A DNA stretch of 64,000 nt, from the NCBI RefSeq assembly GCF_019739195.1, contig NZ_JAHHDS010000003.1, forward strand, positions 1,984,001-2,048,000. Direction: 5' to 3'. Made by a program: the position numbers and the translations under genes. The notes under the pieces were generated by a model. The model did not search any database and was not told the DNA's origin. It saw only the letters and a list, made by a program, of their open reading frames with translations. This stretch comes from Microcella sp. (lineage in GTDB: Bacteria > Actinomycetota > Actinomycetes > Actinomycetales > Microbacteriaceae). Of the stretch, positions 14,921 to 44,018 are shown one piece after another. How positions within the stretch are numbered: the first letter of the stretch is position 1; the number at the start of each line of letters is the position of its first letter.

Positions 14921-15961
14921 ATGGCGCTCGACCACCTGAAGATCGCGATCGTCGGCGCGGGCGCTGTCGGCGGATCGGTAGCAGCTGACCTGATTCGAGC
15001 TGGTCTCGATGTCACGGTGATCGACCAGTGGCCCGCCCACGTCGAGACGATGCGGGCGAACGGCCTGACCGTGCACCTCGCGGCAGAGACGCAGGTCACA
15101 CCGGTGCCCGCGCTGCACCTGTGCCAGGTGGCCGAGTTGCGCGAGCCCTTCGACATCGTTCTCACGGGCGTCAAGACCTACGACACGCGCTGGACCGCTG
15201 AGCTCATGAAGCCCCTGATGCGACCGGACTCGGTGTTCGTGGGCCTGCAGAACGGCATGACGATCGACGACGTGGCTGCGATCGTCGGCGCTGATCGCAC
15301 GATCGGCTGCGTGCTCGGCATCGCCGCGAATCTGCGCACGCCCGGCGTGATCGTGCGACAGGTGACGCCCGCCGAGACCTGGTTTTCAGTCGGCACGCTG
15401 AGCGGCGAGCGCACCGAGAGGCTCGACCAGGTGGCTGCGGTGCTCGCGCACGCCGCCGAGATCGTCGTGACCGACGACATCCGCTCGGCGAAGTGGATGA
15501 AGCTCATCGCCAACATTCCCGAGATGCTGCCGTCAGGCCTTCTCGGTATGCCGCTGCTGGAGGCCGCGCACACGCCGGGCATTCGACCCGTCATGGATGC
15601 GATGTCGCGCGAGGCGTACGCGCTCGCGATCGATCTCGGCATCACCATGATGCCCTCGCTCGGCATCACTGCCGAGGCTATGCCCAATTCCGACCAGTAC
15701 GCGCTCGACCTGCTCGACCGCGTGCTCTCGCACTTCTCGCAGCCCGATACGCGGGTTGCCGTGCTGCAGGACTGGGAGAAGGGCCGCCGGGCCGAACTCG
15801 ACGCCTTCAGCGGGTACATCGTCGCGCAGCGTGCGGAGCTCGGAGGCAGTGCGCCGGTCAACGAGCGGATCCTGCGGCTGTCAGAGAAGGTCGAGCGCGG
15901 CGAACTCACGCCGGCGCCCGAAAACGCACCGCTGCTTATGGCCGCACTCGGCTCCGCTTGA
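14921..15961 (+). CDS. Ketopantoate reductase-like (ApbA/PanE) oxidoreductase, copy A
   Basis: 346 aa. The N-terminal Rossmann domain has IAIVGAGAVGGSVAADLIRAG (NAD(P)-binding GxGxxG). The middle contains VGLQNGMTIDD and the family Lys in SAKWMKLIANIPEM (residue about 190), the general acid in 2-dehydropantoate 2-reductase. The C-terminal helical domain has the conserved LQDWEKGRRAELDAFSGYIV (substrate-binding Lys/Arg and Glu). In this context the substrate is probably another 2-oxo or hydroxy acid of the catabolic pathway, not ketopantoate. It opens the accessory region behind operator A1. A paralogue lies at 32031. Confidence 0.85.
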   Translation: MALDHLKIAIVGAGAVGGSVAADLIRAGLDVTVIDQWPAHVETMRANGLTVHLAAETQVTPVPALHLCQVAELREPFDIVLTGVKTYDTRWTAELMKPLMRPDSVFVGLQNGMTIDDVAAIVGADRTIGCVLGIAANLRTPGVIVRQVTPAETWFSVGTLSGERTERLDQVAAVLAHAAEIVVTDDIRSAKWMKLIANIPEMLPSGLLGMPLLEAAHTPGIRPVMDAMSREAYALAIDLGITMMPSLGITAEAMPNSDQYALDLLDRVLSHFSQPDTRVAVLQDWEKGRRAELDAFSGYIVAQRAELGGSAPVNERILRLSEKVERGELTPAPENAPLLMAALGSA

Positions 15962-15989
15962 CAGGAGACCATGCGATCGCATTGACTGT

Positions 15990-16006
15990 GTTCACTAAGG
16001 CTGAAC
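15990..16006 (+). promoter_or_regulatory. Operator A2 (GTTCA-N7-TGAAC) before the bicupin gene
   Basis: GTTCACTAAGGCTGAAC, both half-sites exact and the spacer 7 nt as in A1. It starts 28 bp after the preceding gene ends and 84 bp before the bicupin start. A -35-like TTGACT (15982-15987) abuts it. A small palindrome GTGGG-ATA-CCCAC follows at 16020-16032. Confidence 0.6.
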
Positions 16007-16073
16007 GCGCGGCAGCGCCGTGGGATACCCACATAGTCACCACGGAGTGCGCAGTACCAAGAAGGAGTCGACG

Positions 16074-16964
16074 ATGACCCGCTATGTCGTCCGCACGGCC
16101 GGTGAGGCCGACTACCGCGACCCCGGGGCGCTCGCCCCCGACTCGCACGGCTACTCGCGCTGGTGCGCGGTCGGCTATGCCGACGGCGCCGTGCACACCG
16201 ACTTCGGCATGTCGCGTCTCGAGCCCGGCGGCGCCGTGCCGACGCACGTGCACTCGTTCGAAGAGTCGTTCCACCTCGTTGAGGGCGAGGTGCTGCTCGT
16301 GACGCCCGAGGCGACCGTGCACCTCGTCGCGGGCGACTACGGCGTGATCCCGCTCGGGGTTCCGCACTCGTGGCACTCGATCGGCGACGCACCCGCAGTG
16401 TGGAGCGACATCTACTCGCCTCCGCCGCGCGTCGAGCACGGCAGCGACACCTACCGGGTCGCCGACCTCGCGCCGGGCGAGCCCGTGAGGGTCGACCCGC
16501 GCGACCCGCGCACCCGTTCGTTCGGGGCCATCACGACCGAGCAGATGAACCCCGGCAAGCAGTCGCAAGAATTGCTCGCGCAGTCGGCCAGCATGCGCAC
16601 GGCCCTGCTCGTCTACAGCGGCATCTCGCTCAAGATGATGGTCGACAGCGACCTCGGCTCGGTGCTGCACACGATGTTCATGGTGCAGTACGAGCCCACC
16701 GGCGTCGCAGGCCCGCACGACCACCCGCTCGAAGAGGCCTACTTGATCATGGATGGCGAGGTCGACGCGACCTTCGACGGCTACGAGGTGCGCATGAAGC
16801 CGGGCGACATCGCCTGGGCTGGCGTCGGCTGCGTGCACTCGTTTCGCGCAGTCGGCGAGCCCGTGCGCTGGCTCGAGACGCAGTCGCCCCAGATGCCCGC
16901 CCGCCACGCCTACCGATTTGCGCGCGACTGGACCTATCTCGCCGACAAGCTCGGCTCTGCATAA
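16074..16964 (+). CDS. Bicupin protein, ureidoglycine-aminohydrolase-like fold
   Basis: 296 aa from ATG 16074, 7 nt after GAAGGAG. Two cupin barrels are visible. The first (residues about 40-120) has PTHVHSFEESFHLVEGEV and GDYGVIPLGVPHSWHSIGD, giving His, His, Glu and His metal ligands. The second (about 195-280) has GPHDHPLEEAYLIMDGEV and KPGDIAWAGVGCVHSFRA. The two-cupin layout with these motifs is that of (S)-ureidoglycine aminohydrolase and relatives, which release ammonia from an amine-bearing carbon. No allantoin genes are present, so the substrate is open. It precedes the degenerate SDR by 42 bp and is probably in the same transcript. Confidence 0.75.
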   Translation: MTRYVVRTAGEADYRDPGALAPDSHGYSRWCAVGYADGAVHTDFGMSRLEPGGAVPTHVHSFEESFHLVEGEVLLVTPEATVHLVAGDYGVIPLGVPHSWHSIGDAPAVWSDIYSPPPRVEHGSDTYRVADLAPGEPVRVDPRDPRTRSFGAITTEQMNPGKQSQELLAQSASMRTALLVYSGISLKMMVDSDLGSVLHTMFMVQYEPTGVAGPHDHPLEEAYLIMDGEVDATFDGYEVRMKPGDIAWAGVGCVHSFRAVGEPVRWLETQSPQMPARHAYRFARDWTYLADKLGSA

Positions 16965-17006
16965 CCGACTCACCTGGCACCCGGCCAGAACGCTCAAGGA
17001 GGAGCA

Positions 17007-17714
17007 GTGACTCAGCGCACCATCGTCGTCATCGGCGGAACATCCGGCATCGGCCTCGAGATCGCGAAGGAGGTTGTCGCCCGCGGCGACCGCGTCGTAC
17101 TGACCGGGCGTGATCAGGCGCGCGCCGATGCCATCGCGCGCTCGATCGGCGAGAACGCCACGGGCCTCGCGCTCGATATCTCCGAGCCCGAGTCGATCGC
17201 CGAGAGCCTCGCGAGCGTCGAGCACGTTCACGGCCTGGTGCTCGCGGCAATCGAACGGGACGCGAACACCGTGCGCGAGTACGACATCGCCCGTGCCCGG
17301 CGTCTCGTGACCCTCAAGCTCGTCGGCTACACCGAGACGGTGCACGCGCTGCTCGACCGGCTCGATCCGACAGTCGACACGGGCATCGTGCTGTTCGGCG
17401 GTCGCGCGAAAGACGCTCCGTACCCCGGCTCGACGACCGTGGCGACCATCAACGGCGGCGTCGAAGGCCTCGTGCACTCGATGGCGCTCGAGCTCGCCCC
17501 CATGCGCGTCAACGGCCTGCACCCCGGCATCATCGGCGACAGCCCGTTCTGGGCCGACAAGCCGGCGGCGGTGCTGCAGGGCTACGAGTCGCGCACGCCG
17601 GGCGGCAAGCTCGCGACCATGGCCGACATCGTGGGCGCCACGATGTTCCTGCTCGACAACCGCGGAGTTTCGGGCACGAGCCTGTACGTCGACCGCGGCT
17701 GGCGGCTCACCTAG
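17007..17714 (+). CDS. SDR-fold protein lacking the catalytic Ser-Tyr-Lys
   Basis: 235 aa, GTG start behind AAGGAGGAG. The cofactor site is intact (IVVIGGTSGIGLEIAKEV). The active-site region reads VLFGGRAKDAPYPGSTTVATINGGVEGLVHS: aligned to the usual YxxxK helix, the Tyr position is Val (about 145), the Lys position is Asn (about 149), and the upstream Ser is Gly. The downstream substrate loop (GLHPGIIGDSPFW) is kept. It may bind NAD(P) without classical oxidoreduction, or belong to an SDR branch with a different mechanism. It is probably co-transcribed with the bicupin, which suggests a partnered role. Confidence 0.75.
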   Translation: MTQRTIVVIGGTSGIGLEIAKEVVARGDRVVLTGRDQARADAIARSIGENATGLALDISEPESIAESLASVEHVHGLVLAAIERDANTVREYDIARARRLVTLKLVGYTETVHALLDRLDPTVDTGIVLFGGRAKDAPYPGSTTVATINGGVEGLVHSMALELAPMRVNGLHPGIIGDSPFWADKPAAVLQGYESRTPGGKLATMADIVGATMFLLDNRGVSGTSLYVDRGWRLT

Positions 17715-17759: not shown

Positions 17760-17799
17760 TTTCACCAGGGCTGTACAGATGCGTGCACCTTTACTGAAT
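17760..17799 (+). promoter_or_regulatory. Tandem operator candidates A3a/A3b before the amidohydrolase gene
   Basis: Two imperfect copies of the 5-7-5 dyad lie 23 bp apart: TTTCACCAGGGCTGTAC (17760-17776) and GTGCACCTTTACTGAAT (17783-17799). The second matches 13 of 17 positions of operator A1, including the spacer TTTAC. A -10-like TATTAT (17755-17760) precedes them. The ATG at 17820 is 20 bp downstream. Confidence 0.5.
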
Positions 17800-17819
17800 T
17801 GCTCAACGAGGAGGAACTC

Positions 17820-19268
17820 ATGACCGACGCCGCTCCCCGCGCCGCGGACTTCACACCCGGACGGCCCGTCGTCTTCCGCAACGCGACGGTGATCACCGTC
17901 GATGCAGCGGGCGTTCTCGAGAACGCCGACGTCTTGATCACGGATGACACCATCGCCGCCGTCGGTCATTCGCTTGAGGTGCCCGCAGGCACGCTCGAGA
18001 TCGATGCGAAGGGCGGCATTCTCATGCCGGGCATGATCGACACGCACCGGCACATGTGGCAGACCGCACTGCGCGGCTACGGCGGAGACTGGGCGCTCAG
18101 CCAGTACTTCGTCTTCTACTACCTCACGTGGGGCCACGTCTTCCGCGCGGAGGACATCGCGGCCGGCAACCAGCTCAGCGCGCTCGAGTCGATCGACGAG
18201 GGCGTCACGACGACCGTCGACTGGTCGCACGCCCTGCGCACGCCCGAGTACGCCGACGCCGCCGTCGAGGCTCTGCGCAGCATCCCCGGTCGATTCGTGC
18301 TCGCCTACGGCAACTACCTCGGTGCTCCGTGGGAGTGGATGAAGGAGCCCGGCTTCCAGTCGTGGGTCAAGAACTTCAAGACCGACGACATGATGGGCCT
18401 GCAAGTGGCCTTCGACGTCAACTCGGGCCCCGACTTCCACGAGAAGGGCGCCTTCGAGGCGGCTCGCGACCTCGGTCTGCGCGTCACCACTCACGCGGGC
18501 GTCTGGGGTGTCAACGGCGACCCGAACATCGAGTACATGTATGACCACGGCTTCATGGACAACACGGTCACCTACGTGCACGCGAGCTCGCTCGGCCCCG
18601 ACAGCTACCACAAGATCGCGGCGACCGGCGGAACCATCTCGATCTCGACCGAGAGCGAGCAGAGCGCCGGCCAGGGCTACCCCTCGGCCTGGGTCGCCAA
18701 GAAGTACGGCATCACCGCGTCGCTGTCGATGGACACAAGCGTGTGGTGGAGCGCCGACTTCTTCTCAGCCATGCGCGCGACGCTCAGCTCGTTCCGCTCG
18801 CGAGACCACCTCGAGGCGCAGAGCAAAGGCGAGACGGTCAACGTCAACCGCATGAAGGCCGAAGACGCTGTGTGGCAGGCGACCATGGGCGGTGCTCACA
18901 CACTCGGCATGGCCGACAAGTTGGGTTCTATCACGGTGGGCAAGAAGGCCGACCTCGTGCTGCTCAAGAACGACGAGTCGCCCGCGATGACACCGATCCT
19001 CAACCCCTACGCTCACGTGGTGTACCAGGCAGGTACGGCCGACGTGCACACCGTCGTCGTCGACGGCAAGATCGTCAAGTACAACGGCGAGCGCATCGGG
19101 CTGCCGCTCAAGCCGGTCGCTGACCGCGTGGCCGCGTCGGTCGAGCACGTGCGCAGCGAACTCGGCGAAGAGGCCTGGGCCGAGTGGATGAACCCGGCCC
19201 TTCCGGAGGATGAGCCCATCGCAAACCCGTACACCTACCTCGATGAGGCAGACGAGAAGGAGATCTAG
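17820..19268 (+). CDS. Amidohydrolase-superfamily metal-dependent deaminase/hydrolase (TrzN/AtzB/guanine deaminase-like)
   Basis: 482 aa, ATG 17820 behind GAGGAGG. Metal ligands of the amidohydrolase barrel are visible: HxH in PGMIDTHRHMWQT (residues 76 and 78), a His in LRVTTHAGVWG, a His in TYVHASSLG, and the conserved Asp in ASLSMDTSVWW. The N- and C-terminal beta-sandwich segments (VITVDAAGVLENADVLI; GSITVGKKADLVLL) frame the barrel. Relatives deaminate or dechlorinate N-heterocycles (chlorotriazines, 8-oxoguanine, S-adenosylhomocysteine). This suggests a C-N or C-X hydrolysis step; the exact substrate is not predictable. It ends in a terminator shared with the convergent VOC gene. Confidence 0.85.
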   Translation: MTDAAPRAADFTPGRPVVFRNATVITVDAAGVLENADVLITDDTIAAVGHSLEVPAGTLEIDAKGGILMPGMIDTHRHMWQTALRGYGGDWALSQYFVFYYLTWGHVFRAEDIAAGNQLSALESIDEGVTTTVDWSHALRTPEYADAAVEALRSIPGRFVLAYGNYLGAPWEWMKEPGFQSWVKNFKTDDMMGLQVAFDVNSGPDFHEKGAFEAARDLGLRVTTHAGVWGVNGDPNIEYMYDHGFMDNTVTYVHASSLGPDSYHKIAATGGTISISTESEQSAGQGYPSAWVAKKYGITASLSMDTSVWWSADFFSAMRATLSSFRSRDHLEAQSKGETVNVNRMKAEDAVWQATMGGAHTLGMADKLGSITVGKKADLVLLKNDESPAMTPILNPYAHVVYQAGTADVHTVVVDGKIVKYNGERIGLPLKPVADRVAASVEHVRSELGEEAWAEWMNPALPEDEPIANPYTYLDEADEKEI

Positions 19269-19276
19269 AGGCCGGA

Positions 19277-19323
19277 GTGCGGCGACGTGGACCATCGCGG
19301 TGCGCCGCCGCACGTCGCTGCAC
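19277..19323. terminator. Bidirectional stem-loop between amidohydrolase and VOC genes
   Basis: A 13-nt arm GTGCGGCGACGTG (19277-19289) pairs with CACGTCGCTGCAC (19311-19323) with one mismatch. It lies between convergent stop codons and ends in the VOC stop codon. Confidence 0.55.
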
Positions 19324-19772
19324 TATTTCTTCGGGTGCTGCCAGATCTCGAGCTGGATGCCGTCGGGGTCGCGCAAGTAGGCCCACTGTGATCCGGCGAG
19401 ATCGCCATCGGTCAGCGTGACGGGCGGACCGTTGAAGACCGCCCCGCGCTCGGTCAGGTCGGCGAACGCGGTATGCATATCGTCGACCTCGAGGCAAATG
19501 TGTGCTGAACCGACGTCTCCGTTGGTGCGATCCCAATCCTTGCCTTCGGGCTGGTGGTACTGCAGAAACTCGACGTTGACGTTTCCGATGCGAATCATCG
19601 AGAACGATAGTTCGGCGCCTGGCACCTGCACGCCTCGTTCGAGATCGGGACCCGAGCCGTGATTGAGGGGCCCCGGCTCGACGCCGAACATGCGGGTGTA
19701 CCACTCAAACGACCGTTGAATGTCTCGAACAGTAATGCCGACGTGGTGCACGCCGTTGACGGTGAATGCCAT
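19323..19772 (-). CDS. VOC (glyoxalase/bleomycin-resistance fold) protein
   Basis: 149 aa from ATG 19772, 8 nt after GAAGGAG; the frame extends upstream but without a better start. Paired beta-alpha-beta-beta-beta modules are seen: VHHVGITVRDIQRSFEWYTRMFG at the N-terminus (first metal His) and AHICLEVDDMHTAFADLTERG and DPDGIQLEIWQH at the C-terminus (second His and the terminal Glu). The fold supports isomerases, epimerases, lyases and extradiol dioxygenases; residues do not settle which. It is convergent with the amidohydrolase and has its own palindromic promoter element at 19788. Confidence 0.8.
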   Translation of the reverse strand: MAFTVNGVHHVGITVRDIQRSFEWYTRMFGVEPGPLNHGSGPDLERGVQVPGAELSFSMIRIGNVNVEFLQYHQPEGKDWDRTNGDVGSAHICLEVDDMHTAFADLTERGAVFNGPPVTLTDGDLAGSQWAYLRDPDGIQLEIWQHPKK

Positions 19773-19787
19773 CTGTCCACTCCTTCG

Positions 19788-19804
19788 TGTACGAGAGACG
19801 TACA
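19788..19804 (-). promoter_or_regulatory. Perfect 17-bp palindrome before the VOC gene
   Basis: TGTACG-AGAGA-CGTACA is a perfect 6-5-6 inverted repeat 15 bp upstream of the VOC ATG. Its spacing differs from the GTTCA-N7-TGAAC operators, so a different regulator or a variant site is implied. Confidence 0.5.
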
Positions 19805-19995
19805 GGCCTGGTGGACGACTCGCCACGATCAGGCTGAACGTTTTGTACCCAGACTCAACACCACGAGGAGCCGTCATCGCAAGGCCCGAGCGCCGGTCTG
19901 CGAGCGCTTATGTCAAGCAATTCGGGGAATCCGGGCCTCTGGCAGGCGAACAAGCATGGCCACAGACCGCCCGACTTCAGGCTGACCTCGTTCAC

Positions 19996-20109: not shown

Positions 20110-20889
20110 ATGGCAGGACGATTGCACGGTCGCACGATCGTCGTGACCGGCGGCGCATCGGGTATAGGTGCCGCACTCTGCGAAGGCTTCGCCTCAGAAG
20201 GAGCCCACTCCGTCATTGCCGACCTGAATGTCGAGGCGGCGCAGGCCCACGCGCAGCGCATCACCGACGCGGGCGGAAGCGCGATGGCAGTGCGCGTCGA
20301 CGTCACCGATCGCGACTCGGTTCAGGCCGGGATCGCCGCAGCTGTCGACCGCTATGGTCGCCTCGACGCCTACTTCAACAACGCGGGCATGAATTCACCC
20401 ATGAAGTATCTCGACGTCACCGAGTCGAACTTTGACCTGATCATGAAAGTCAATGTGCTGGGCGTTCTCGTCGGCACGCAAGAGGCGGCGAAGCAGTTCA
20501 TCGCCCAGGGCACGCCGGGCAAGGTTGTGAACACCGCGTCCATCGCCGGTCGAACGGGCTTCTCGAGTTTCGCGCCCTATAGCGCTGCGAAGGCGGCCGT
20601 CATCTCGTTGACGCAATCGGGGGCGCGGGCGCTCGCCGAGAACGGCATCACGGTCAACGGATTCGCCCCGGGCGTCGTCGCGACCCCGCTTTGGACAAAG
20701 CTCGACAAAGAGCTCGACGAGATCGGCGAGGGCCAGAACGGCTTCGACTCGATGTCGAGCTCGATTCTGCTCGGCCGCCCGGCCGACCCGAGCGACATCG
20801 TTCCCACCGGCATCTTCTTGGCGGGGCCCGACAGCGACTACATCACCGGCCAGATCATTCCCATCGAGGGCGGCATGATCCTCGTCTGA
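20110..20889 (+). CDS. Classical SDR dehydrogenase, copy A
   Basis: 259 aa, ATG behind AAAGGAG. All classical SDR motifs are present: TGGASGIG (cofactor), NNAG (about residue 92), Ser in VVNTASIAGRTG, YSAAKAAV (Tyr-x3-Lys) and a C-terminal DYITGQIIPIEGGM. An Asp after beta-2 (VIADLN) points to NAD preference. It probably oxidises a secondary alcohol of the pathway. It is the first gene of a five-gene + strand run (SDR, M24-fold, three MDRs). A paralogue at 42243-43046 shares the WTKLDKELDE / WEQLDKDLVA substrate-loop pattern. Confidence 0.88.
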   Translation: MAGRLHGRTIVVTGGASGIGAALCEGFASEGAHSVIADLNVEAAQAHAQRITDAGGSAMAVRVDVTDRDSVQAGIAAAVDRYGRLDAYFNNAGMNSPMKYLDVTESNFDLIMKVNVLGVLVGTQEAAKQFIAQGTPGKVVNTASIAGRTGFSSFAPYSAAKAAVISLTQSGARALAENGITVNGFAPGVVATPLWTKLDKELDEIGEGQNGFDSMSSSILLGRPADPSDIVPTGIFLAGPDSDYITGQIIPIEGGMILV

Positions 20890-20930: not shown

Positions 20931-22313
20931 ATGAAGAGCACCGGAACCACCGGCATGAACGGCGTCGACTGGGAGGCACGCGTCGATTTCGATCGGTTGC
21001 GGGATGACCGCCTCGCGAAGCTCAAGGCTGAACTCGACCGTTCTGACGTCGGTGCGCTGCTCGCCTTCGACTTTTCGAACATCCGTTACATGACCGCTAC
21101 CCACATCGGCACGTGGGCGATGGACAAGCTCATCCGGTTCAGCTTGCTGACCCGCAACACCGACCCCATCTCGTGGGACTTCGGCTCGGCAGCGAAGCAC
21201 CACAAGCTCTACAACCCGTGGCTCGACGTCACCACCTCAGAGATGGACGCCGACCCGCACTCGCCCCACGAAGGTGCGAAGCGACCGCGTCTCGAGAGCG
21301 GCGCGCGTGCCGGCATCTCGACGCTGCGCGGCGCGTTTCCGCCCGATGCCGGCATCGCTGAAGAGGTGGCCCGCAAGGTCAAGCGCGAACTCGAGAAGTT
21401 CGGCGTCGCCGACCAGCCGCTCGGCGTCGACGTGATCGAGCTACCTATTCTGTTCGCGCTGCAAAAAGAAGGCATTCAGGTCGTCGACGGCCAGCAGATC
21501 TTCCTCGAGGCGCGCCGCATCAAAACCCACGACGAGATTCGGCTGCTCACGCAGGCCGCCTCGATGGTCGACGCGGCCTACGAGAACCTCTACGAATTCT
21601 TGCGCCCCGGCGTGCGCGAGAACGAGGCGGTGGGCCTCGTCGCCAAGACGCTCTATGACCTCGGTTCAGAGTACGTCGAAGGTGTCAACGCGATCTCAGG
21701 TGAGCGCTGCTCGCCGCACCCGCACGTGTTCAGCGACCGTCTGATTCGCCCCGGCGACCCGGCGTTCTTCGACATTCTGCACAGCTACAACGGCTACCGC
21801 ACCTGCTACTACCGCACCTTCGCGGTGGGGTCGGCGAGCCGCGCGCAGAAGGATGCTTACACCCGAGCACGCGAGTACATGGATCGCGCGATCGCACTGG
21901 TTAGGCCGGGCGCCACCACGGCAGACATCGTCGCGGTGTGGCCGAAAGCCCAAGAATTCGGATTCGCCGACGAAGAGGCCGCGTTCGCGTTGCAGTACGG
22001 CCACGGCGTCGGCCTGTCCATCTGGGAGAAGCCGATCTTCTCGCGCCTCACCTCGTTCGACCACCCCGAGCTCATCGAAGAGGGCATGGTGTTCGCCCTC
22101 GAGACCTATTGGCCCGCAGCTGACGGCTGGGGTGCTGCACGAATCGAAGAAGAGGTCGTCGTCACGGCCACCGGGTGCGAGGTCATCACGAAGTTTCCGG
22201 CCGAAGAGCTGCTCGTCGCGGGCAAGCGCTACTACGCGGTCGGCGGCGAGCTCAGTACGCTGCGCGACTCGCAGTCGCACCTCAACACGACCGACGGTCG
22301 TGGCGGGCTCTAG
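20931..22313 (+). CDS. M24/creatinase-fold hydrolase with an Asp-to-Cys metal-site change, copy A
   Basis: 460 aa from ATG 20931 (the frame is open upstream inside the SDR gene). The N-terminal creatinase domain (FDFSNIRYMTATHIGTW, WDFGSAAKHHKLY) is followed by the pita-bread domain. Of the five canonical metal ligands, Asp281 (AFFDILHSYNGY), His358 (YGHGVGL), Glu391 (FALETY) and Glu406 (ARIEEEVVV) are present. The second Asp, 11 residues after the first, is Cys292 in NGYRTCYYRTF. Relatives include aminopeptidase P, metal-free creatinase and the DMSP lyase DddP. I infer a small-molecule hydrolase or lyase, not a peptidase. A paralogue lies at 36045. Confidence 0.82.
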   Translation: MKSTGTTGMNGVDWEARVDFDRLRDDRLAKLKAELDRSDVGALLAFDFSNIRYMTATHIGTWAMDKLIRFSLLTRNTDPISWDFGSAAKHHKLYNPWLDVTTSEMDADPHSPHEGAKRPRLESGARAGISTLRGAFPPDAGIAEEVARKVKRELEKFGVADQPLGVDVIELPILFALQKEGIQVVDGQQIFLEARRIKTHDEIRLLTQAASMVDAAYENLYEFLRPGVRENEAVGLVAKTLYDLGSEYVEGVNAISGERCSPHPHVFSDRLIRPGDPAFFDILHSYNGYRTCYYRTFAVGSASRAQKDAYTRAREYMDRAIALVRPGATTADIVAVWPKAQEFGFADEEAAFALQYGHGVGLSIWEKPIFSRLTSFDHPELIEEGMVFALETYWPAADGWGAARIEEEVVVTATGCEVITKFPAEELLVAGKRYYAVGGELSTLRDSQSHLNTTDGRGGL

Positions 22314-26703: not shown

Positions 26704-26729
26704 CAAAGAGCCGCCTTTCGAACGACGAT

Positions 26730-28225: not shown

Positions 28226-28299
28226 AGCCCCGTTCCACCGGAACGGAGCGCACCAAGAGACGTGCGACAAGGCCGTCGCGCCGAACAATGGAGGAAAGA

Positions 28300-29457: not shown

Positions 29458-29505
29458 ATCGGGCCGCTCCACACCCGCTCGCACGCACCGATTGAGGGTC
29501 CAGCT

Positions 29506-33062: not shown

Positions 33063-33063
33063 A
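33058..33063. repeat. Left target-site duplication of the IS481 element
   Basis: CCTAGA, repeated exactly at 34142-34147. It fits NCTAGN, the target preference known for IS481 of Bordetella pertussis. The CTAG holds the stop codon of the upstream + strand gene. Confidence 0.9.
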
Positions 33064-34141: not shown

Positions 34142-34147
34142 CCTAGA
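34142..34147. repeat. Right target-site duplication of the IS481 element
   Basis: CCTAGA, identical to 33058-33063. Its CTA (34143-34145) is the stop codon, read on the - strand, of the downstream oxidoreductase. Confidence 0.9.
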
Positions 34148-37334: not shown

Positions 37335-37375
37335 GAGGAAGTGCTCCTGACGTTGGGTGAATATGCTGGTCATGA

Positions 37376-37440: not shown

Positions 37441-38451
37441 TCACCACTCGGGAGCGACCGACGGGTCGTCCGCGTTGTCAGCGGTCACCTTGACCGAGGG
37501 CATGAACAGCTCGCGGGGCGACGGGGTGTTGCCCGTGAGCACGTCGTACGCGACGCGCACGGCGTTCTCGCCATCCCATGACGACGACTGGAAGACGGTG
37601 CCGTCCAGCTCGCCCGAGACCACGAGCGGGTTGCCGAGGAACGTGTTGCCGATCGACGTGATGTAGAGCGACGCGGGGTCGATGCCTCGAGCCTTGAGGG
37701 CGTCGATCGCGCCAGCGACCATCGTGTCGTCAGCCGCGTAGATGCCCTGAACGTTCTCGGGGCCCACAGCGGTCAGCATTTCCGACACAGCGATCTGCGA
37801 GTCATCTTTGTTCCAGTTGCCCGGCTGCTCGGCGAGGATCGTCACGTTCGGGCAGTTCGCCTCGATCGTGTCGACGAAGCCAGCGTTGCGGTTGATGGCC
37901 GTCGAGTTTCCGGTGAGACCGTTGACCACGAGAATGCCGACCTCTTCGCCGTCGACGAGCTCGCACATGATCTCGGCCGATGAGACGCCCTGACCGTAGG
38001 TGTCGGGGCCCGAGTAGGCCTCGGTGAGATCCTGGTCTTCAGGGTTCACGTCAGAGTTCGTGACGGTGACCGGGATTCCGGCGGCGTTGGCGGCAGCCAG
38101 GCACGGACGCACGGTGTCGCCCACGGCGGGCCACAGGATGATCAGGTCGGGCTGAGCCGCGACCGCGACCTCGCACTCGCTGGCCTGCTGGTCAGCGTCG
38201 TACTGCGAGTTCGTGATCGTCAGGTTGATGCCGAGTTCGTCGGCGGCCGCCTGCATCGGCGGCAGGTAGGTGGTGCCGTAGGGCTGGTCTGTGCCCTGGG
38301 GCAGCAGCGCGTAGACCTCGAAGGTCTCGTCGCCAGCGCCAGCGCCGTCGGTGCCGCCGTCGGACGAGTCTGCAGCTGCGCAGCCCGAAAGCACGAGTCC
38401 AGCGGCGGCCACAAGGCCGATCGCGGAGAACGTGATGCGAGTGTTTCGCAT
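37441..38451 (-). CDS. CUT2 substrate-binding lipoprotein, system B
   Basis: 336 aa. The signal ends in the lipobox LSGC (about residue 24). The mature PBP type I fold is shown by EVYALLPQGTDQPYGTTYLPPMQAAADEL, ECEVAVAAQPDLIILWPAV, VNGLTGNSTAINRNAGF and GIYAADDTMVAGAIDALKARG (the ribose/autoinducer-type ligand domain). It is clearly different from the system A binding protein, which suggests a different though possibly related ligand. It is the fourth gene of the - strand operon ATPase-permease-permease-binding protein. Confidence 0.9.
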   Translation of the reverse strand: MRNTRITFSAIGLVAAAGLVLSGCAAADSSDGGTDGAGAGDETFEVYALLPQGTDQPYGTTYLPPMQAAADELGINLTITNSQYDADQQASECEVAVAAQPDLIILWPAVGDTVRPCLAAANAAGIPVTVTNSDVNPEDQDLTEAYSGPDTYGQGVSSAEIMCELVDGEEVGILVVNGLTGNSTAINRNAGFVDTIEANCPNVTILAEQPGNWNKDDSQIAVSEMLTAVGPENVQGIYAADDTMVAGAIDALKARGIDPASLYITSIGNTFLGNPLVVSGELDGTVFQSSSWDGENAVRVAYDVLTGNTPSPRELFMPSVKVTADNADDPSVAPEW

Positions 38452-38509: not shown

Positions 38510-39556
38510 TCAGACGGGGGTCTGAGCCTTCTCGCGACTGCGCAGAGACGAACGAACGCCTGCGAGAGCCGCGCGAAGATTGGTGGGATCGGTGATCACG
38601 GCGAGCAGCAGAATGACGCCGATGAAGATGTCTTGAATGTCGACCTGCACGCCCGAGAGCGTGAGTGCTATCTGCAGGATGCCGAGCGAGAAGGCGCCGA
38701 TGAGGGTGCCGAGCACCGAACCGCGCCCGCCGTTGAGCACGACGCCGCCGATGATGGCTGCGGCGAAGCTCGCGAGCAGCACCGTCGACCCTGCCGTCGG
38801 GTCGGCGGCGGTGCGCTCGAGCGTGTTGATGATGCCGGCGAGAGAGGCGACGAAGCCCGAGATCAGGAAGCCGGTGAGAATGCGGCGACGCACGGGAATG
38901 CCCGCATCCACCGCAGCCTGCCGGTTGCCGCCGACCGCATAGAACTCGCGGCCCGCTCTGACGCGGCTCAAGAAGATCTGCAGAGCGACGAAGGCGAGGA
39001 TGAAGAGCAGCACGCGAGGGGTGAGCGGCCCCAGCAGGGGAGCGCCGAAGGCGATGCCGGCATCGATGTTGGTCAAGCGCACGGGCTCTTCGTCCGAGAG
39101 CACGAACGCGAGACCTCGCAGGGCGAAGAGCATGCCCAGTGTCGCGATGAACGAGTTGATGCCGACCACGACCACGAAGAACGCGTTGATCGCGCCGATG
39201 ATGAGGCCGGTCGCGAGGGCGGCGAGAATGCCGAGCCAGAGGTCGGGAATACTCGCCATCACGACGCCCGACACCGCGAGCGTGCTGGCGACACTGAGGT
39301 CGAGCTCGCCCATGAGAATGACGGCGGTGAGGCCGAGTGCGACGAGGCCGATGAGCGCGACGCGGCCCAGGGTCACCTGGTATGAGGTGAACACGACGGG
39401 CTCGAGAATGGCGGCCGCCACGATCACGACCGACAGCAGGGCCAGCCCTCGGCCCTCGGTGCGGCGCGCGAGGGTCACCTTGAGCTGGTCGAACCAGCCG
39501 CCGCGCGCCGCGCCGAGGTGCATGGTGGTGTGAGGCTGCTTCTCTGTAGTGCTCAT
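38510..39556 (-). CDS. CUT2 ABC permease, system B (second)
   Basis: 348 aa with about nine hydrophobic segments. RbsC-type motifs: LIGLVALGLTAVILMGELDLSVAST, GINSFIATLGMLFALRG, FYAVGGNRQAAVDAGIPV (the loop facing the ATPase) and AAIIGGVVLNGGRGSVLGTLIG. It forms a channel with the permease whose gene it overlaps by 4 nt. Confidence 0.9.
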   Translation of the reverse strand: MSTTEKQPHTTMHLGAARGGWFDQLKVTLARRTEGRGLALLSVVIVAAAILEPVVFTSYQVTLGRVALIGLVALGLTAVILMGELDLSVASTLAVSGVVMASIPDLWLGILAALATGLIIGAINAFFVVVVGINSFIATLGMLFALRGLAFVLSDEEPVRLTNIDAGIAFGAPLLGPLTPRVLLFILAFVALQIFLSRVRAGREFYAVGGNRQAAVDAGIPVRRRILTGFLISGFVASLAGIINTLERTAADPTAGSTVLLASFAAAIIGGVVLNGGRGSVLGTLIGAFSLGILQIALTLSGVQVDIQDIFIGVILLLAVITDPTNLRAALAGVRSSLRSREKAQTPV

Positions 39557-40572
39557 TTCTTGGCCGCCCTTCTCGCGAGAGCATCGACAGAGACCGCGAG
39601 CACGATCAGCGCTCCGATCGCCATCTGCTGGAATCCGAACCCGATACCCGAGAGCACGAGAATGTTGGTGAGCACGCTCACGAAGATCACGCCGAGCAGG
39701 GTGCGCAGCACGCTGCCCTTGCCGCCGAACACGCTCGTGCCGCCGATGATGATCGCGGCGAGCGCGCGGAACTCGTAGCCGTCAGACATCGACGACACCG
39801 CCGTGTTCGAGAAGGCGGCGAGCACGAATCCGGCGACCATGGCCGAGAGAGCGGTGATGACGAAGGCCCCGACGACGACGGCAGTCGTGTTGACGCCGGC
39901 GAGGCGTGTGGCGTTCTTGTTGGAGCCGTAGGCGCGCACCGCGAAGCCGAAGGTCGTACGCGTCAAGACGAACCAGAGCACGATGGTTACGAGCAAGAGC
40001 ACCAGGGCCGAGAGCGGGATCGGGCCGAGCCTCGCTTGACCGAACGCACGGATCGGTCCGTCTTCGGGGCCGAAGAAGATGCTGCCGCCGGAGAGCCAGC
40101 GCAGGATTCCGAGGCCGATGAACGTGGTCGAGAGGGTGACGATGACCGCGTTGGCCTTGAAGAAGCCCACCGCGAGGCCATTGACGACTCCGTACATCAT
40201 GGCGACGAGCGAGGCGACGGCGACAGCGGCGAAGACACCGAACTCGTTGCTGATGCCGATGAAGATCACCGCCGACGTGGCCACTTGGGCGACGACCGAG
40301 AGGTCGAGGTAGTTGGCGCTGATGACGACGAAGGTCATGCCGACCGCGACGATGCCGATCGGCGCCGCCCGGTAGAAGACGTCGGTCAGGTTCGGCAGGG
40401 TCGCGAACCCGTCGATGAAGATCACGGCGGCGAGAATCAGCAGCACGGTGAAGACGATGACGCCGCGATCGGCCATCCAGAGCAGCAGGCTGAACCGCTT
40501 CTTCTCGATGCCGGCCTCGGTGGAGTTGGCGACGGCGATCGTCTCGGTCAGGGTCTCGGTCTCACGGCTCAT
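39553..40572 (-). CDS. CUT2 ABC permease, system B (first)
   Basis: 339 aa. RbsC-type motifs: PIGIVAVGMTFVVISANYLDLSV, NAVIVTLSTTFIGLGILRWL, VRAYGSNKNATRLAGVNT and AAIIIGGTSVFGGKGSVLRTLLG. It overlaps the downstream permease by 4 nt and the upstream ATPase stop by 1 nt (TAATG), so translation of the operon is tightly coupled. In contrast to system A, all four transporter parts are separate. Confidence 0.9.
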   Translation of the reverse strand: MSRETETLTETIAVANSTEAGIEKKRFSLLLWMADRGVIVFTVLLILAAVIFIDGFATLPNLTDVFYRAAPIGIVAVGMTFVVISANYLDLSVVAQVATSAVIFIGISNEFGVFAAVAVASLVAMMYGVVNGLAVGFFKANAVIVTLSTTFIGLGILRWLSGGSIFFGPEDGPIRAFGQARLGPIPLSALVLLLVTIVLWFVLTRTTFGFAVRAYGSNKNATRLAGVNTTAVVVGAFVITALSAMVAGFVLAAFSNTAVSSMSDGYEFRALAAIIIGGTSVFGGKGSVLRTLLGVIFVSVLTNILVLSGIGFGFQQMAIGALIVLAVSVDALARRAAKK

Positions 40573-42098
40573 TAGGCACCCACCAGGGTCTCGCCGGATG
40601 CCAGCGACATCACGGTCTTCTCATCGGCTTCCGACTGCTGGAGCGTGCCCATGATGCGGCCGTCGCGGACGACGTGGATCACATCAGAGAGCTCGAGCAG
40701 CTCGGGAAGATCAGAACTCACGACCAGCACCGCGGCGCCGTTGTCGGCGAGCTCGCGCACGAGGCGGTGAATCTCGGCCTTCGCGCCGACATCGACACCG
40801 CGCGTGGGCTCGTCGAGCACGATGAAGTCGGGCTTGCGGCCGAGCCACTTGGCGATGACGACTTTCTGCTGGTTGCCGCCCGAGTACTCGCCGACCTCGC
40901 GCGAGATTGCGGGCGGTCGCAGCCCGACCTCGTCTGCCAGCCGCCGCACGAAGCTACTGATCGACTTGGGTTTCAGCACCGAAGCGGTCGAGAGCTCGGC
41001 CCGGTTCGGCAAGGCCACATTGTCGGAGACGGTCATCGTAAGGGCGAGGCCGTCGACGCGACGTTCTTCAGGCACATAGCCGATGCCGGCGCGCACGGCC
41101 GACTGGAAGCTGCCGATGACGGTGCGGCGGCCATCCACCGTCATCGTCACTGTGCCCGCCGTGCGCGGGTCGGCGCCGACGATCGCGCGCACGAGCTCGG
41201 TGCGACCGGCGCCGACGAGGCCGCCGAGGCCCACGATCTCGCCTGCGCGCACGTCGAGGTCGACGTCGTTGACGTTCGGAGCCTTGATGCCGCGCGCGGA
41301 GATCACGACATCGCCAGGGGTGGCCGTGCGGCGCACCTGCAGGTCGAGCTGCAGCTCGCGACCGACCATGGCGTCGATCACGGCACTCGGGGTGGTGTCG
41401 GCGATCTCGGTGCGCTCGACGAGGTGGCCGTCGCGCAGAATCGTGACGGCGTCGCAGATCGCGAAGACCTCGGGGATGCGGTGCGAGATGTAGATGACTG
41501 CCATGCCTTTGCTCGCGAGCCTCTGCAGCATCGCCAGCAGGTAGTCGGTCTCGGCCGGGGTCAGTGTGGCGGTCGGCTCGTCGAGGATGAGCACGCGCGG
41601 CTTACGAGCGACCGCTCGGGCGATCTCGACGAACTGCCGCAGTGAGACGGAGAGGCGCGCGATCGGCTCGTCGAGGTCGACGGTGACGCCAATCTCATCG
41701 AGGGCTTCGCGGGCGATGGCCTTGAGTCGACGGGAGCGAATGAAACCGGCCGTCGTCGGCGGGGTACCGAGCAGGATGTTCTCGGCGACCGTCATCTCGG
41801 GAACAAGGCTGAGCTCTTGGTGCACGAGCGCGATACCGGCGTCGATCGCGGCCCGAGGGCCGCCCTCGAGCTCATCGCCGCCGACACGGATGCTGCCGGA
41901 GTCGGGCGAGATGATGCCGGCGAGAATGCGCATGAGCGTCGACTTGCCCGCCCCGTTCTCTCCGACCACTGCGTGGATCTCGCCGGGGCGCACCTCGAGG
42001 TCGACATCGGCGAGGGCGAGAGCGCCGCCGAATCGCTTCGAGATGCCGCGCGCCTGCACGATCGGCGCGGGGTTCTCGTGCTGCTCTGAGTTCGTCAT
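40572..42098 (-). CDS. CUT2 double-domain ABC ATPase, system B
   Basis: 508 aa from ATG 42098 behind GGAGAG; the frame extends upstream to 42152 without a site. Domain 1: Walker A GENGAGKST, LSVSLRQFVEIARAV as the signature region and Walker B VLILDEPTATLTPAE. Domain 2: degenerate Walker A (LVGAGRTELV), signature YSGGNQQKVVIAKWL and Walker B FIVLDEPTRGVDVG. This is the RbsA/MglA/XylG pattern, powering import of a sugar-like solute. First gene of the system B operon, with operator B1 45 bp upstream. Confidence 0.92.
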   Translation of the reverse strand: MTNSEQHENPAPIVQARGISKRFGGALALADVDLEVRPGEIHAVVGENGAGKSTLMRILAGIISPDSGSIRVGGDELEGGPRAAIDAGIALVHQELSLVPEMTVAENILLGTPPTTAGFIRSRRLKAIAREALDEIGVTVDLDEPIARLSVSLRQFVEIARAVARKPRVLILDEPTATLTPAETDYLLAMLQRLASKGMAVIYISHRIPEVFAICDAVTILRDGHLVERTEIADTTPSAVIDAMVGRELQLDLQVRRTATPGDVVISARGIKAPNVNDVDLDVRAGEIVGLGGLVGAGRTELVRAIVGADPRTAGTVTMTVDGRRTVIGSFQSAVRAGIGYVPEERRVDGLALTMTVSDNVALPNRAELSTASVLKPKSISSFVRRLADEVGLRPPAISREVGEYSGGNQQKVVIAKWLGRKPDFIVLDEPTRGVDVGAKAEIHRLVRELADNGAAVLVVSSDLPELLELSDVIHVVRDGRIMGTLQQSEADEKTVMSLASGETLVGA

Positions 42099-42142
42099 CA
42101 CTCTCCATTGGGTGCTGATCGCTGACGTCGGCGTCGTTCTGA

Positions 42143-42163
42143 GTGTAAACACACGAAGAACAC
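42143..42163 (-). promoter_or_regulatory. Operator B1 (GTGTT-N11-TACAC) before the system B transporter operon
   Basis: On the - strand GTGTT, 11 nt, TACAC, flanked by a further A/T pair (AGTGT...ACACT, 42142-42164). It is 45 bp upstream of the ATPase ATG. The same half-sites at the same spacing recur at 43136. Confidence 0.55.
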
Positions 42164-42198
42164 TTAAGCCAGACCTGTGGCGTATTTGTTATCTAAGA

Positions 42199-42239: not shown

Positions 42240-42242
42240 GCG

Positions 42243-43046
42243 CTACTGGATCACCATTCCGCCGTCGATCATCAGCAGCTGCCCCGTCATGTAGTCGCTG
42301 TCGGGGCTCGCGAGGAACGCGGCCGTGCCGACGATGTCTTCGGGGTAGGAGTAGCGCTTCATGAGAATCATGTTCTCGGCGATCGAGTCCATCGACTGGC
42401 CGGGCTTGTCGAACATCCCCATCGCCACAAGGTCTTTGTCGAGCTGCTCCCACAGCTCGGTGCGCACCACCCCAGGCGCGTAGCCGTTGACCGTGATGTT
42501 GTGCTCGATGAGCGACTTGGCGCCGGCCTTGATGATTCCCAGAACGGCGTGCTTGCTCGCCGTGTACACGGTCACGTCGATGAAGGCTTCTCGCGACAGA
42601 ATCGAGCCGACATTGATGATCTTGTACGGCTGCTCTTGCTTGCCCTGATCGCGCATCTGCTTGGCCGCCTCTTGCATGCACACGAGAGTGCCCCAGGCGT
42701 TGACGTCCATGATTCGCTGCCAGTTCTCTTCGGTGATGTCGAGAAAGAACAGCGGCTTGTTGATGCCGGCGTTGTTGAGCAGCACGTTGATCGAGCCGAA
42801 CTCGGCGACCGTGTGGGCCACGGCGGCGGCAGCCGACTCGCGCTTCGTGACGTCGAGCGACACCGCGGTCGCGACGCCGCCGGCGGCGTTGATCTCGTCG
42901 GCCACGGCCTGGGCGCCCTCGAGGTTGACGTCGCCGAGGCAGACCTTGGCGCCTTGCGCCGCGTAGTAGCGGCCGACCGCCGCACCCATTCCCTGGGCTG
43001 CGCCGGTGATCAAGACGTTCTTTCCTGCGAGTCGCGTGGTGTCCAT
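42243..43046 (-). CDS. Classical SDR dehydrogenase, copy B
   Basis: 267 aa from ATG 43046; the open frame continues far upstream, but only this start gives the SDR N-terminus LAGKNVLITGAAQGMGAAVGR. Motifs: NNAG in VLLNNAGINKP, Ser in NVGSILSREAF, YTASKHAVLGI (Tyr-x3-Lys) and DYMTGQLLMIDGGM. The substrate loop GVVRTELWEQLDKDLVAMG parallels copy A (WTKLDKELDEIGEG), supporting a common origin and similar substrate. It is a single-gene unit behind operator B2. Confidence 0.88.
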   Translation of the reverse strand: MDTTRLAGKNVLITGAAQGMGAAVGRYYAAQGAKVCLGDVNLEGAQAVADEINAAGGVATAVSLDVTKRESAAAAVAHTVAEFGSINVLLNNAGINKPLFFLDITEENWQRIMDVNAWGTLVCMQEAAKQMRDQGKQEQPYKIINVGSILSREAFIDVTVYTASKHAVLGIIKAGAKSLIEHNITVNGYAPGVVRTELWEQLDKDLVAMGMFDKPGQSMDSIAENMILMKRYSYPEDIVGTAAFLASPDSDYMTGQLLMIDGGMVIQ

Positions 43047-43135
43047 GCGATGCTGCTCCGTTTCGCTGTGTCTGAGGAGGGACGGGCCCGGAGGAGAGAA
43101 CAGCGTGTGGTCTCGCACCACCGGCGACCCTGTCG

Positions 43136-43156
43136 GTGTTATGCCACACAATACAC
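43136..43156 (-). promoter_or_regulatory. Operator B2 (GTGTT-N11-TACAC) before SDR copy B
   Basis: GTGTT (43136-43140), 11 nt, TACAC (43152-43156) on the + strand, 90 bp upstream of the SDR B start. Both half-sites and the spacing match operator B1 exactly. Confidence 0.55.
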
Positions 43157-43254
43157 GAAGGTCGTGAATGCACCACTGGAACGCGTTATCGTGGCTCCTG
43201 GGAGAACACTGACCACTCACGGGGTGACAGCGCACGGTGCTGTGTTGCGCACCG

Positions 43255-43275
43255 CCGTACACTGTTGACGAACAC
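43255..43275 (+). promoter_or_regulatory. Operator B3 before XRE-cupin gene B
   Basis: Reverse complement GTGTT-N11-TACGG, 8 of 10 half-site positions matching B1/B2, 20 bp before the ATG at 43296. The same bases also form GTACA-N7-CGAAC, a relaxed version of the A operators, hinting that the A and B sites are related. Confidence 0.5.
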
Positions 43276-43295
43276 CCGAGGAATGGATTGTCACC

Positions 43296-44018
43296 ATGAG
43301 CAACGCCGACGACGAATGGTCGATCGTGGGAGAGCGCATCCGGCTCGCTCGTGAATCGCTCGGTATGAGCGTGCGAGAGCTCTCGCGACGGGTCGACGTG
43401 TCGGCCAGTCACGTGTCGCAGGTCGAGCGCGGCCTTGCCTCCTTCAGCGTTCGCGCGCTCTACACGGTCGTCAGCGAGCTCGGCATCTCGATGGACAGCC
43501 TCTTCGAGGACTCTCCCGTCGACACCGACGATTCTCCGTTTCCGGATGACGATGCCGTAGTGGCCCGTTCGAAAGACACCTCGCTCGAAGAGGCGGGAAT
43601 CGTGCTGCGGCACGCCGATCGACCGACGATCAGCCTGAGCTCTGGCCCGCGCTGGGAGCGCCTGACGGCCAAGCCCGAGTCGAACGCCGAGTTCATCGAC
43701 GTCATCTACGCCCCAGCGCCCGGCGCAGAACCGCCGGCCGACTTCGTGCGGCACGACGGTCGCGAGTACGGCGTGATCATCCGTGGCGAGCTCAACGTGC
43801 AGGTCGGCTTCGGCACGGCTGTTCTCGCCGTCGGCGATTCGATCTCGTTCGACTCGTCGATTCCGCACCGGTTCTGGAACAGCTCAGACGACGAGGTGCA
43901 CGCCATCTGGTTCGTGCTCGACAACCACCTCGATGAGATGCGTCAGCAGTTCTCGAGCGTGGGCGCGACGAACCACCTGCACGGTTCGAGCGAGCGCCGA
44001 CCGGCGAGCGCGCACTGA
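43296..44018 (+). CDS. XRE-family regulator with C-terminal cupin sensor, copy B
   Basis: 240 aa. HTH_XRE domain: IRLARESLGMSVRELSRRVDVSASHVSQVERGLASFSVRALYTVV. The linker is acidic and contains DTDDSPFPDDDAV. The cupin (residues about 150-225) has VRHDGREYGVIIRGELNVQVGFG and LAVGDSISFDSSIPHRFWNSSDDE. It is a paralogue of copy A: the cupin halves align well (EYGV, PHxxxN, IWFV), the linkers do not. It is divergent from SDR B, and I infer that it controls the B operators, including its own promoter. Confidence 0.9.
   Translation: MSNADDEWSIVGERIRLARESLGMSVRELSRRVDVSASHVSQVERGLASFSVRALYTVVSELGISMDSLFEDSPVDTDDSPFPDDDAVVARSKDTSLEEAGIVLRHADRPTISLSSGPRWERLTAKPESNAEFIDVIYAPAPGAEPPADFVRHDGREYGVIIRGELNVQVGFGTAVLAVGDSISFDSSIPHRFWNSSDDEVHAIWFVLDNHLDEMRQQFSSVGATNHLHGSSERRPASAH

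Follow-up and report, generated by a model that had tools for sequence, protein, structure and literature searches.

We slightly favour the reading that this region of Microcella sp. is one catabolic island of plug-in build, an exchangeable group of uptake and degradation genes gained and lost as a block by related bacteria, arranged around an unstudied M24-fold enzyme nearly always accompanied by the same energy-yielding enzyme complex. The window, that is, the whole stretch analysed, comprises 64,000 nt of assembly GCF_019739195.1 (NZ_JAHHDS010000003.1, positions 1,984,001-2,048,000, forward strand). In it, Pfam and NCBIfam profile searches trace the catabolic unit from 14921 to about 50273 (Table 1), beyond the end at 44018 that the original prediction had set. 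An aldehyde dehydrogenase (ALDH) of the succinate-semialdehyde dehydrogenase (SSADH) type, a GntR regulator, a second VOC protein, E1 and E2 continue the unit (44056-50273), and this stretch holds the genes most often linked to M24 in other genomes.

The components had otherwise been correctly named. Both profile collections recover the five part types in duplicate (CUT2 importer, XRE-cupin regulator, SDR, M24-fold and ketopantoate-reductase-like enzymes), the single amidohydrolase (of TRZ/ATZ type), bicupin, PRISE-like reductase, VOC protein and beta-hydroxyacid dehydrogenase, and the three MDRs, which are zinc MDRs. The SDR described as degenerate does lack the usual YxxxK motif, as do all 14 of its orthologues at the genus sites. 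Overlooked was an IS481-family element (33059-34146) between KPR2 and HIBDH. It has 40-nt inverted repeats (83% complementary) and two copies in the genome, and is a later insertion that stands outside the pathway.

Table 1. Features of the catabolic unit (positions in the window).
Feature	Position	Strand	Evidence
KPR1, ketopantoate-reductase-family oxidoreductase, frame	14921..15961	+	Pfam ApbA/ApbA_C; TIGR00745
Bicupin, frame; two cupin domains, His-rich motifs	16074..16964	+	Pfam Cupin_2, two stretches
Degenerate SDR without YxxxK, frame	17007..17714	+	Pfam/NCBIfam
TRZ/ATZ-type amidohydrolase, frame	17799..19268	+	Pfam Amidohydro_1; PRK08204
VOC-family protein, cassette a	19323..19877	-	Pfam
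SDR1, directly 5' of M24a	20110..20889	+	Pfam; TIGR02415
M24a, creatinase/DddP-fold enzyme, Cys at metal-ligand position	20931..22313	+	Pfam PF00557; alignment; tree
MDR1 zinc dehydrogenase	22323..23405	+	Pfam/NCBIfam
MDR2 zinc dehydrogenase; top named model IolM, far below cut-off	23451..24509	+	Pfam/NCBIfam
MDR3 zinc dehydrogenase	24541..25515	+	Pfam/NCBIfam
PRISE-like reductase	25624..26706	-	Pfam PF22917
CUT2 permease, cassette a	27206..28225	+	Pfam
CUT2 binding protein SBP1, cassette a	28288..29397	+	Pfam; solved relatives
CUT2 ATPase-permease fusion, cassette a	29446..32034	+	Pfam
KPR2, second ketopantoate-reductase-family enzyme	32031..33062	+	Pfam; TIGR00745
IS481-family insertion element; transposase 33073-34086	33059..34146	-	Pfam; inverted repeats; genome copies
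HIBDH, beta-hydroxyacid dehydrogenase family, frame	34143..35036	-	Pfam/NCBIfam
XRE-cupin regulator 1, frame	35301..36029	+	Pfam
M24b, second M24-fold enzyme, cassette b	36045..37373	-	Pfam; alignment; tree
CUT2 binding protein SBP2, cassette b	37441..38451	-	Pfam; solved relatives
Two CUT2 permeases (38510-39556, 39553-40572), cassette b	38510..40572	-	Pfam
CUT2 ATPase, cassette b	40572..42152	-	Pfam
SDR2, cassette b	42243..43046	-	Pfam; 61-62% to Roseobacter plasmid SDR
XRE-cupin regulator 2, cassette b	43296..44018	+	Pfam
Aldehyde dehydrogenase, NADP succinate-semialdehyde dehydrogenase family	44056..45432	-	NF006915
GntR-FCD regulator, lower part	45458..46177	-	Pfam
Second VOC protein, lower part; distant resemblance to methylmalonyl-CoA epimerase	46150..46659	-	NCBIfam; solved relatives
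Fused E1 alpha-beta, 2-oxo-acid dehydrogenase-type complex, lower part	46810..48978	+	Pfam/NCBIfam; solved relatives
E2 acyltransferase, lower part	48978..50273	+	Pfam

A constant frame with exchangeable cassettes

In the genus, the island occupies a hotspot between rlmB and E1/E2, which we compared in 21 of 26 genomes; the other five (G189, G403, G404, G405, G410) were left out, as contig ends break up their site or rlmB could not be located. One and the same set of 14 sites holds bicupin, degenerate SDR, amidohydrolase and M24a, so that gene neighbourhoods in relatives, named beforehand as a check on the prediction, do not unlink the parts. The remaining seven sites (G340, G137, G406, G310, G409, G413, G235) are three empty ones and four relics. 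HIBDH and E1 are present in the above 14 sites and in G235, where M24 is lost and both E1 and KPR1 carry in-frame stops. Genus-wide, M24 is found in 17 of 26 genomes, E1 in 18 and both in 17.

The constant frame consists of bicupin, degenerate SDR, amidohydrolase, M24a, HIBDH and, usually, KPR1 and XRE-cupin 1, and joined to it is a constant lower part of GntR, VOC, E1, E2 and often ALDH. Between or beside these two lie exchangeable upper cassettes with an importer and at least one alcohol dehydrogenase. Those 5' of M24a are swapped between strains, and two genomes (G400, G366) retain the frame with no importer inside the island. Cassette b additionally carries a second M24 and a regulator; this module b is optional, occurring as a second cassette in CUT2 form at two of the 21 sites (G000, G408) and in a LIV-transporter form at four (G398, G399, G402, G074). 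The whole island is gained and lost at a single chromosomal site, and its empty, relic, minimal and full versions are natural comparisons for direct testing of substrate and pathway order.

The region had been described as two paralogous modules, a view that this architecture of frame and cassettes does not bear out. Paralogy fits the M24 (58% pairwise identity), KPR (49%) and SDR (47%) pairs well, but the importers only loosely (37% between the ATPases; 29% between the binding proteins, and there over just 159 aa). Both importers are of CUT2 type, with BPD_transp_2 permeases, a double-ABC ATPase and a Peripla_BP_4 binding protein; the XRE-cupin regulators are 38% identical. M24a and M24b form separate old clades in a tree from a fast method, with SH-aLRT as its sole support measure and two branches flagged as long; it indicates that the two modules were assembled, and on it their duplication in place was rejected.

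The M24-fold enzymes and their companions

Both M24 proteins belong to the fold (PF00557, 137 bits for M24a and 124.6 for M24b; gathering score 23). M24 metallopeptidases have five metal ligands, D, D, H, E and E. In all 115 aligned homologues, chosen after leaving out matches shorter than 300 aa or with internal stops, a cysteine (Cys301) replaces the second metal-binding aspartate and the other ligand residues (D290, H367, E400, E415) are intact, so that the family lacks the full five-ligand set. Databases annotate these proteins as 'Xaa-Pro peptidase', yet they have lost a metal-binding residue and travel with a decarboxylating complex, not with peptide genes. We judge it an evenly balanced proposition that this 'GYRTCYYRT' family has a new non-peptidase activity, cleaving an SDR-activated carbonyl compound, and defines an undescribed pathway in Actinomycetota, Roseobacter plasmids and haloarchaea, the intended last step being in every case its own 2-oxo-acid dehydrogenase complex. 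M24 and bicupin, earlier viewed as C-N hydrolases, are at most candidates for that activity: the nearest named M24 model is that of a C-S lyase, DddP, itself far below its cut-off. The bicupin reaches only 19.3 bits against the (S)-ureidoglycine aminohydrolase model (NF008376, cut-off 338), on which an allantoin-type bicupin was rejected.

Among the other enzymes, the ALDH exceeds the cut-off of its equivalog model (NF006915, 748.2 bits against 730). KPR1 and KPR2, whose reactions are putative, pass the ketopantoate reductase subfamily model (TIGR00745, 146.6 and 153.1 bits; cut-off 141.35) and fall below the equivalog models. Below cut-off are also SDR1 and SDR2 with the acetoin/2,3-butanediol dehydrogenase model (TIGR02415, 240.1 and 221.8 bits against 304.35), the amidohydrolase with PRK08204 (353 against 391) and E1 with NCBIfam equivalogs (235.1 against 393.85; 221.2 against 454).

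Linkage of M24 with E1 beyond the genus

The linkage of M24 with E1 is far above chance. In the family, E1 occurs in 77 of 80 genomes with M24 and in 14 of 318 without it (Fisher p 1.9e-63, shared ancestry ignored), and of the 61 genomes (out of 77) with M24 and E1 on one contig, 60 have them within 30 kb, counting a single listed place for each genome. That M24 is present in about one fifth of the family genomes searched (80/398), even in genomes of 1.1-1.8 Mb, suggests a common environmental compound. Among the best 80 of 136 named loci, E1 accompanies M24a in 13 of 16 and M24b in 38 of 64; in the subset of 52 with full flanks, it is near M24 in 41. Its absence at 50% identity from the other 26 M24b-type loci is partly due to cut contigs.

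On plasmids, M24 stands beside E1 in six of the eight records viewed (of 48, several near-identical), including Roseobacter and Haloferax mediterranei; the stretches seen of R. opacus pR1CP1 and Halorussus pelagicus hold no E1, and 13 further M24-bearing plasmid relatives are known from the match list only. The order on Roseobacter plasmids is CUT2-SDR-SBP // SBP-SDR-M24-E1a-E1b-E2-SSADH-E2, and in H. mediterranei E1a/E1b adjoin M24, with SSADH nearby. In the available excerpt of a Phaeobacter genome paper, plasmid E1/E2 are mentioned only as pyruvate dehydrogenase genes.

E1 orthologues occur without M24 in 14 of the 91 E1-bearing family genomes; we fetched the neighbourhoods of 11 of them and of a second E1 in G321. 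In two (G044, G162) the contig ends inside the E1 cluster, so that M24 may lie past the edge. Some of these loci adjoin sugar-phosphate genes (aldolase, FGGY kinase, a glycerol-1-phosphate-dehydrogenase-like gene), and E1 may therefore use another substrate type there. In G100, E1-E2-VOC follow a D-amino-acid-dehydrogenase-like and a racemase-like enolase gene, which fits a 2-oxo acid as the E1 substrate.

A possible pathway and its alternatives

With this in mind, one may propose a route for the single island. The CUT2 importers would take up one compound or two, small, polar, resembling sugars or polyols and perhaps containing nitrogen, and SDR and MDR enzymes would oxidise a hydroxyl group to a carbonyl. 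On the molecule thus activated the M24-fold enzyme would act as a non-peptidase, cleaving it through elimination or hydrolysis. KPR and HIBDH may convert hydroxy acids to oxo acids or semialdehydes and back, ALDH may oxidise a semialdehyde, and E1-E2 would form an acyl-CoA by decarboxylating the 2-oxo acid that results; VOC may invert the stereocentre of this acyl-CoA. Substrate or intermediates would be sensed by the XRE-cupin and GntR proteins.

A possible but clearly less probable reading is that two or three independent catabolic pathways crowd one insertion hotspot, with unrelated substrates for M24a and M24b and E1-E2 as their common outlet. It would accommodate the free variation of cassettes between strains, the occurrence of module a or b alone in other genera, the age and separation of the M24 clades and the other neighbours of some E1 orthologues. 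However, the frame genes and M24a are present all-or-none, and both M24 types, at 58% identity, pair with an SDR and the same E1, VOC and GntR.

The top named model for both M24s, spanning nearly all of M24b, is DddP, and its structures 4s00 and 4rzy are among their solved relatives, the 4s00 alignment covering most of the length. That the island degrades a compatible solute resembling DMSP or ectoine, with M24 as a relative of DddP or DoeA, is nevertheless very improbable. We set this reading aside because the scores lie far below the cut-offs (DddP, NF043017, 104.6 and 100.2 bits for M24a and M24b against an equivalog cut-off of 600; the ectoine hydrolase DoeA, TIGR02993, 61.6 and 51.2 against 613), and the cysteine at the Asp position also speaks against it; profile searches recognised no DoeB-like, acrylate or 3-hydroxypropionate genes in the island. 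In the Thermotoga inositol route, two oxidations yield a cyclic 1,3-diketone, the ring C-C bond of which is hydrolysed. By analogy, M24 might be the ring hydrolase of a cyclitol-type pathway, as CUT2 import and the pairing of SDR and M24, seen in each module and again on three Roseobacter plasmids with an SDR 61-62% identical to SDR2, would allow. The scyllo-inosose 3-dehydrogenase IolM (NF041097) is the top NCBIfam model for MDR2 and MDR3, but at 187.5 and 169 bits (149.9 for MDR1) against 450, on which the Thermotoga route itself was set aside; moreover, most cassettes lack MDRs, and MDR2 occurs in 3 of 21 sites. No other inositol-pathway genes were found in the island, nor any description of the Thermotoga hydrolase among the entries that a literature search listed. 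We consider such a pathway improbable.

Relation to known systems

Literature searches found no described pathway matching the island, and with its parts linked in relatives the claim of an undescribed catabolic system stands. The benzoxazinoid (bxd) cluster of Microbacterium was a word match only: the excerpt available names a lactonase, ALDH, VOC and other genes, and no M24 or E1. The DMSP lyase DddP resembles the island M24s in its two-domain fold, as judged by sequence, but they reach one sixth of its cut-off, carry the Cys substitution and have different neighbours. With acetoin, pyruvate and branched-chain 2-oxo acid dehydrogenase complexes the island shares E1 alpha, E1 beta and E2 domains, and the closest solved relatives of its E1 are pyruvate dehydrogenase E1; unlike in those complexes, alpha and beta are fused, score below the equivalogs and have VOC and GntR for company inside a catabolic island.

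Sugar-type import, as originally suggested, agrees with the nearest solved relatives of the binding proteins, the ligands being putative. SBP2 weakly (~75 bits) resembles 4rsm, 4rs3 and 5hko, Mycobacterium-type proteins with polyol ligands, whereas SBP1 is closer to the YtfQ type. Aromatic funnelling pathways are modular upper/lower catabolic islands. Although none of their pathway-defining enzymes was recognised in the Microcella island, they share with it exchangeable entry cassettes that feed a common lower part.

A single island with exchangeable cassettes

Across the genus, the chromosomal site between rlmB and the E1-E2 genes (a 2-oxo-acid dehydrogenase-type complex) is a hotspot for a single island in which a constant frame and an equally constant lower part are combined with exchangeable upper cassettes, and this is our main new result. 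Of 26 genus genomes, 24 gave an rlmB match, 18 an E1 match and 17 an M24 match, and each of the 17 also carries E1. The bicupin, degenerate SDR, amidohydrolase and M24a (one of two M24-fold enzymes) all occur in the same 14 of the 21 sites compared, and none in the remaining 7. HIBDH, a beta-hydroxyacid dehydrogenase family gene, and E1 occupy these 14 sites and that of genome G235; XRE-cupin 1 is found in 13 of the 14 and in three stripped sites, and KPR1 was labelled at 11 of the 21. In G340 and G137 nothing lies between rlmB and a DUF4032 gene, and the G406 site holds two unrelated genes only. XRE-cupin is the sole remainder of the island in G310 and G409, where PntAB still adjoins rlmB; at G413, XRE-cupin is left together with an IS481 relative and 40 aa of HIBDH, and the G235 site, without M24, bicupin and amidohydrolase, has stops within its E1 and KPR1.

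The cassette preceding M24a consists of SDR1 alone (G366), SDR1 and VOC (G400), SDR1, three MDRs, PRISE and CUT2 (source genome G000, G401, G074), two amidohydrolases or one with another CUT2 set (G408, G411, G407, G275), or a third CUT2 set (G412, G402, G390, G399), which in G398 is combined with VOC and SDR1. Six of the 21 sites go on to a second, M24b-bearing cassette, in CUT2 form (G000, G408) or LIV form (G398, G399, G402, G074). What the comparisons show is which genes are present, that they are linked, that they are gained and lost together, and that cassettes are exchanged.

In the source genome (2.88 Mb; region G000:C3:1984001-2048000), Pfam and NCBIfam bore out nearly all part names of the original prediction, but the unit extends further than proposed, via ALDH, GntR, VOC, E1 and E2 to 50273, and an IS481-family element had been overlooked. 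This element, flanked on each side by CTAG, has two genome copies (99% identity) and is enclosed by converging KPR2 and HIBDH, neither of them broken, since their protein ends match the G401 and G074 counterparts. A Microcella MAG (L012) has M24a and E1 92% and 91% identical to the copies studied here, which makes Microcella the likely genus.

Features of the region and their positions in the window
Feature	Position	Length	Remarks
IS481-family element	33059-34146	1088 bp	40-nt inverted repeats
PntAB transhydrogenase genes (PntA in two parts)	50397-53259		after E2

Linkage of M24 and E1 in relatives

Among 398 family genomes, M24 occurs in 80, E1 in 91 and both in 77; E1 is present in 77/80 genomes with M24 vs 14/318 without (Fisher p 1.9e-63, uncorrected for ancestry). 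The two share a contig in 61 of the 77, at most 30 kb apart in 60 of these 61, and M24 lacks E1 in three of the 80 (G038, G112, G276). Some of the 11 E1-without-M24 genomes fetched, out of 14, retain VOC and GntR. In G100 (L174), E1-E2-VOC without M24 lies behind D-amino-acid-dehydrogenase-like, M19 dipeptidase and o-succinylbenzoate-synthase/racemase-type (enolase) genes, possibly a D-amino-acid pathway. More distant E1 copies (60-64%) lie beside aldolase, FGGY kinase and glycerol-1-phosphate-dehydrogenase-like genes.

Among the best 80 of 136 candidate loci, a sample that leans to Actinomycetota because the search patterns were chosen from the window, E1 (at least 50% identity) lies near M24a-type genes in 13/16 and near M24b-type genes in 38/64; where both flanks are complete (52 loci), E1 is present in 41, and E1 together with VOC likewise in 41. 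Module a occurs without module b in L120 and L121, both small genomes, and also in L019, an Acidimicrobiaceae MAG whose parts are 34-53% identical; module b occurs without module a in L116, L118, L119, L124 and L127. Small family genomes (1.1-1.8 Mb; L116-L121) retain single modules. In Streptosporangiaceae-type loci (L022, L023, L029 and related), M24 lies near Mo-hydroxylase-like, FrsA-like alpha/beta hydrolase and amine oxidase genes.

An M24 relative is encoded by 48 of 72,556 plasmid records, of which we viewed eight. Three Roseobacter plasmids (Phaeobacter, Tritonibacter, Marinovum) carry CUT2-SDR-SBP facing SBP-SDR-M24-E1alpha-E1beta-E2-SSADH-E2, with M24 63-64% identical to M24b and the adjoining SDR 61-62% to SDR2. 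M24, VOC, E1 and E2 are all present on Streptomyces and Paenarthrobacter plasmids. In L137 (Paenarthrobacter ureafaciens plasmid) and L138 (Streptomyces plasmid), M24-E1-VOC is accompanied by genes for amidase, RidA, flavin reductase or an LLM flavin oxidoreductase, a hint that these hosts use it on nitrogen-ring substrates. In Haloferax mediterranei, a 35%-identical M24 adjoins E1alpha and E1beta, with SSADH nearby. Speaking against the linkage, the stretches viewed of Rhodococcus opacus pR1CP1, which carries just M24, VOC and XRE, and of Halorussus pelagicus, with M24 alone, contain no E1.

Origin of the modules and role of the M24 enzymes

The suggested paralogy fits the M24 (58% identity), KPR (49%) and SDR (47%) pairs well and the importers (CUT2 ATPases 37%, binding proteins weakly similar) only loosely; the XRE-cupin regulators are 38% identical. 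A tree built from 114 M24 sequences places M24a and M24b in separate clades of 27 and 8 rows (SH-aLRT 100 each), both including other genera. The copies therefore diverged long before the source genome, and the two modules were joined by assembly.

DddP is the best-scoring model for both M24 enzymes, yet they score one sixth of its cut-off. Across 115 homologues, D290, C301, H367, E400, E415, H272 and R304 (M24b numbering) are invariant, and H274 is found in 113. C301 aligns with an Asp of prolidase 1pv9 that is one of two bridging metal ligands, and all 28 M24a-type enzymes have Trp at a position that is His in 85 of the other 87 and is catalytic in methionine aminopeptidase. This makes a peptidase role unlikely.

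One may propose that CUT2 imports the substrate, the binding proteins being nearest to CUT2 sugar/polyol proteins, that SDR and MDR enzymes oxidise it, and that M24 cleaves the product. KPR and HIBDH would then handle oxo acids, ALDH would oxidise a semialdehyde (it scores 748.2 vs a succinate-semialdehyde dehydrogenase cut-off of 730), and E1-E2 would perform oxidative decarboxylation. The amidohydrolase and bicupin, constant frame genes, may act on a nitrogen-bearing intermediate, the least secure step of this scheme.

The open-licence literature searched held no description of the system. The island and its M24 family appear undescribed in the literature searchable here; modular catabolic islands are already known as a kind.
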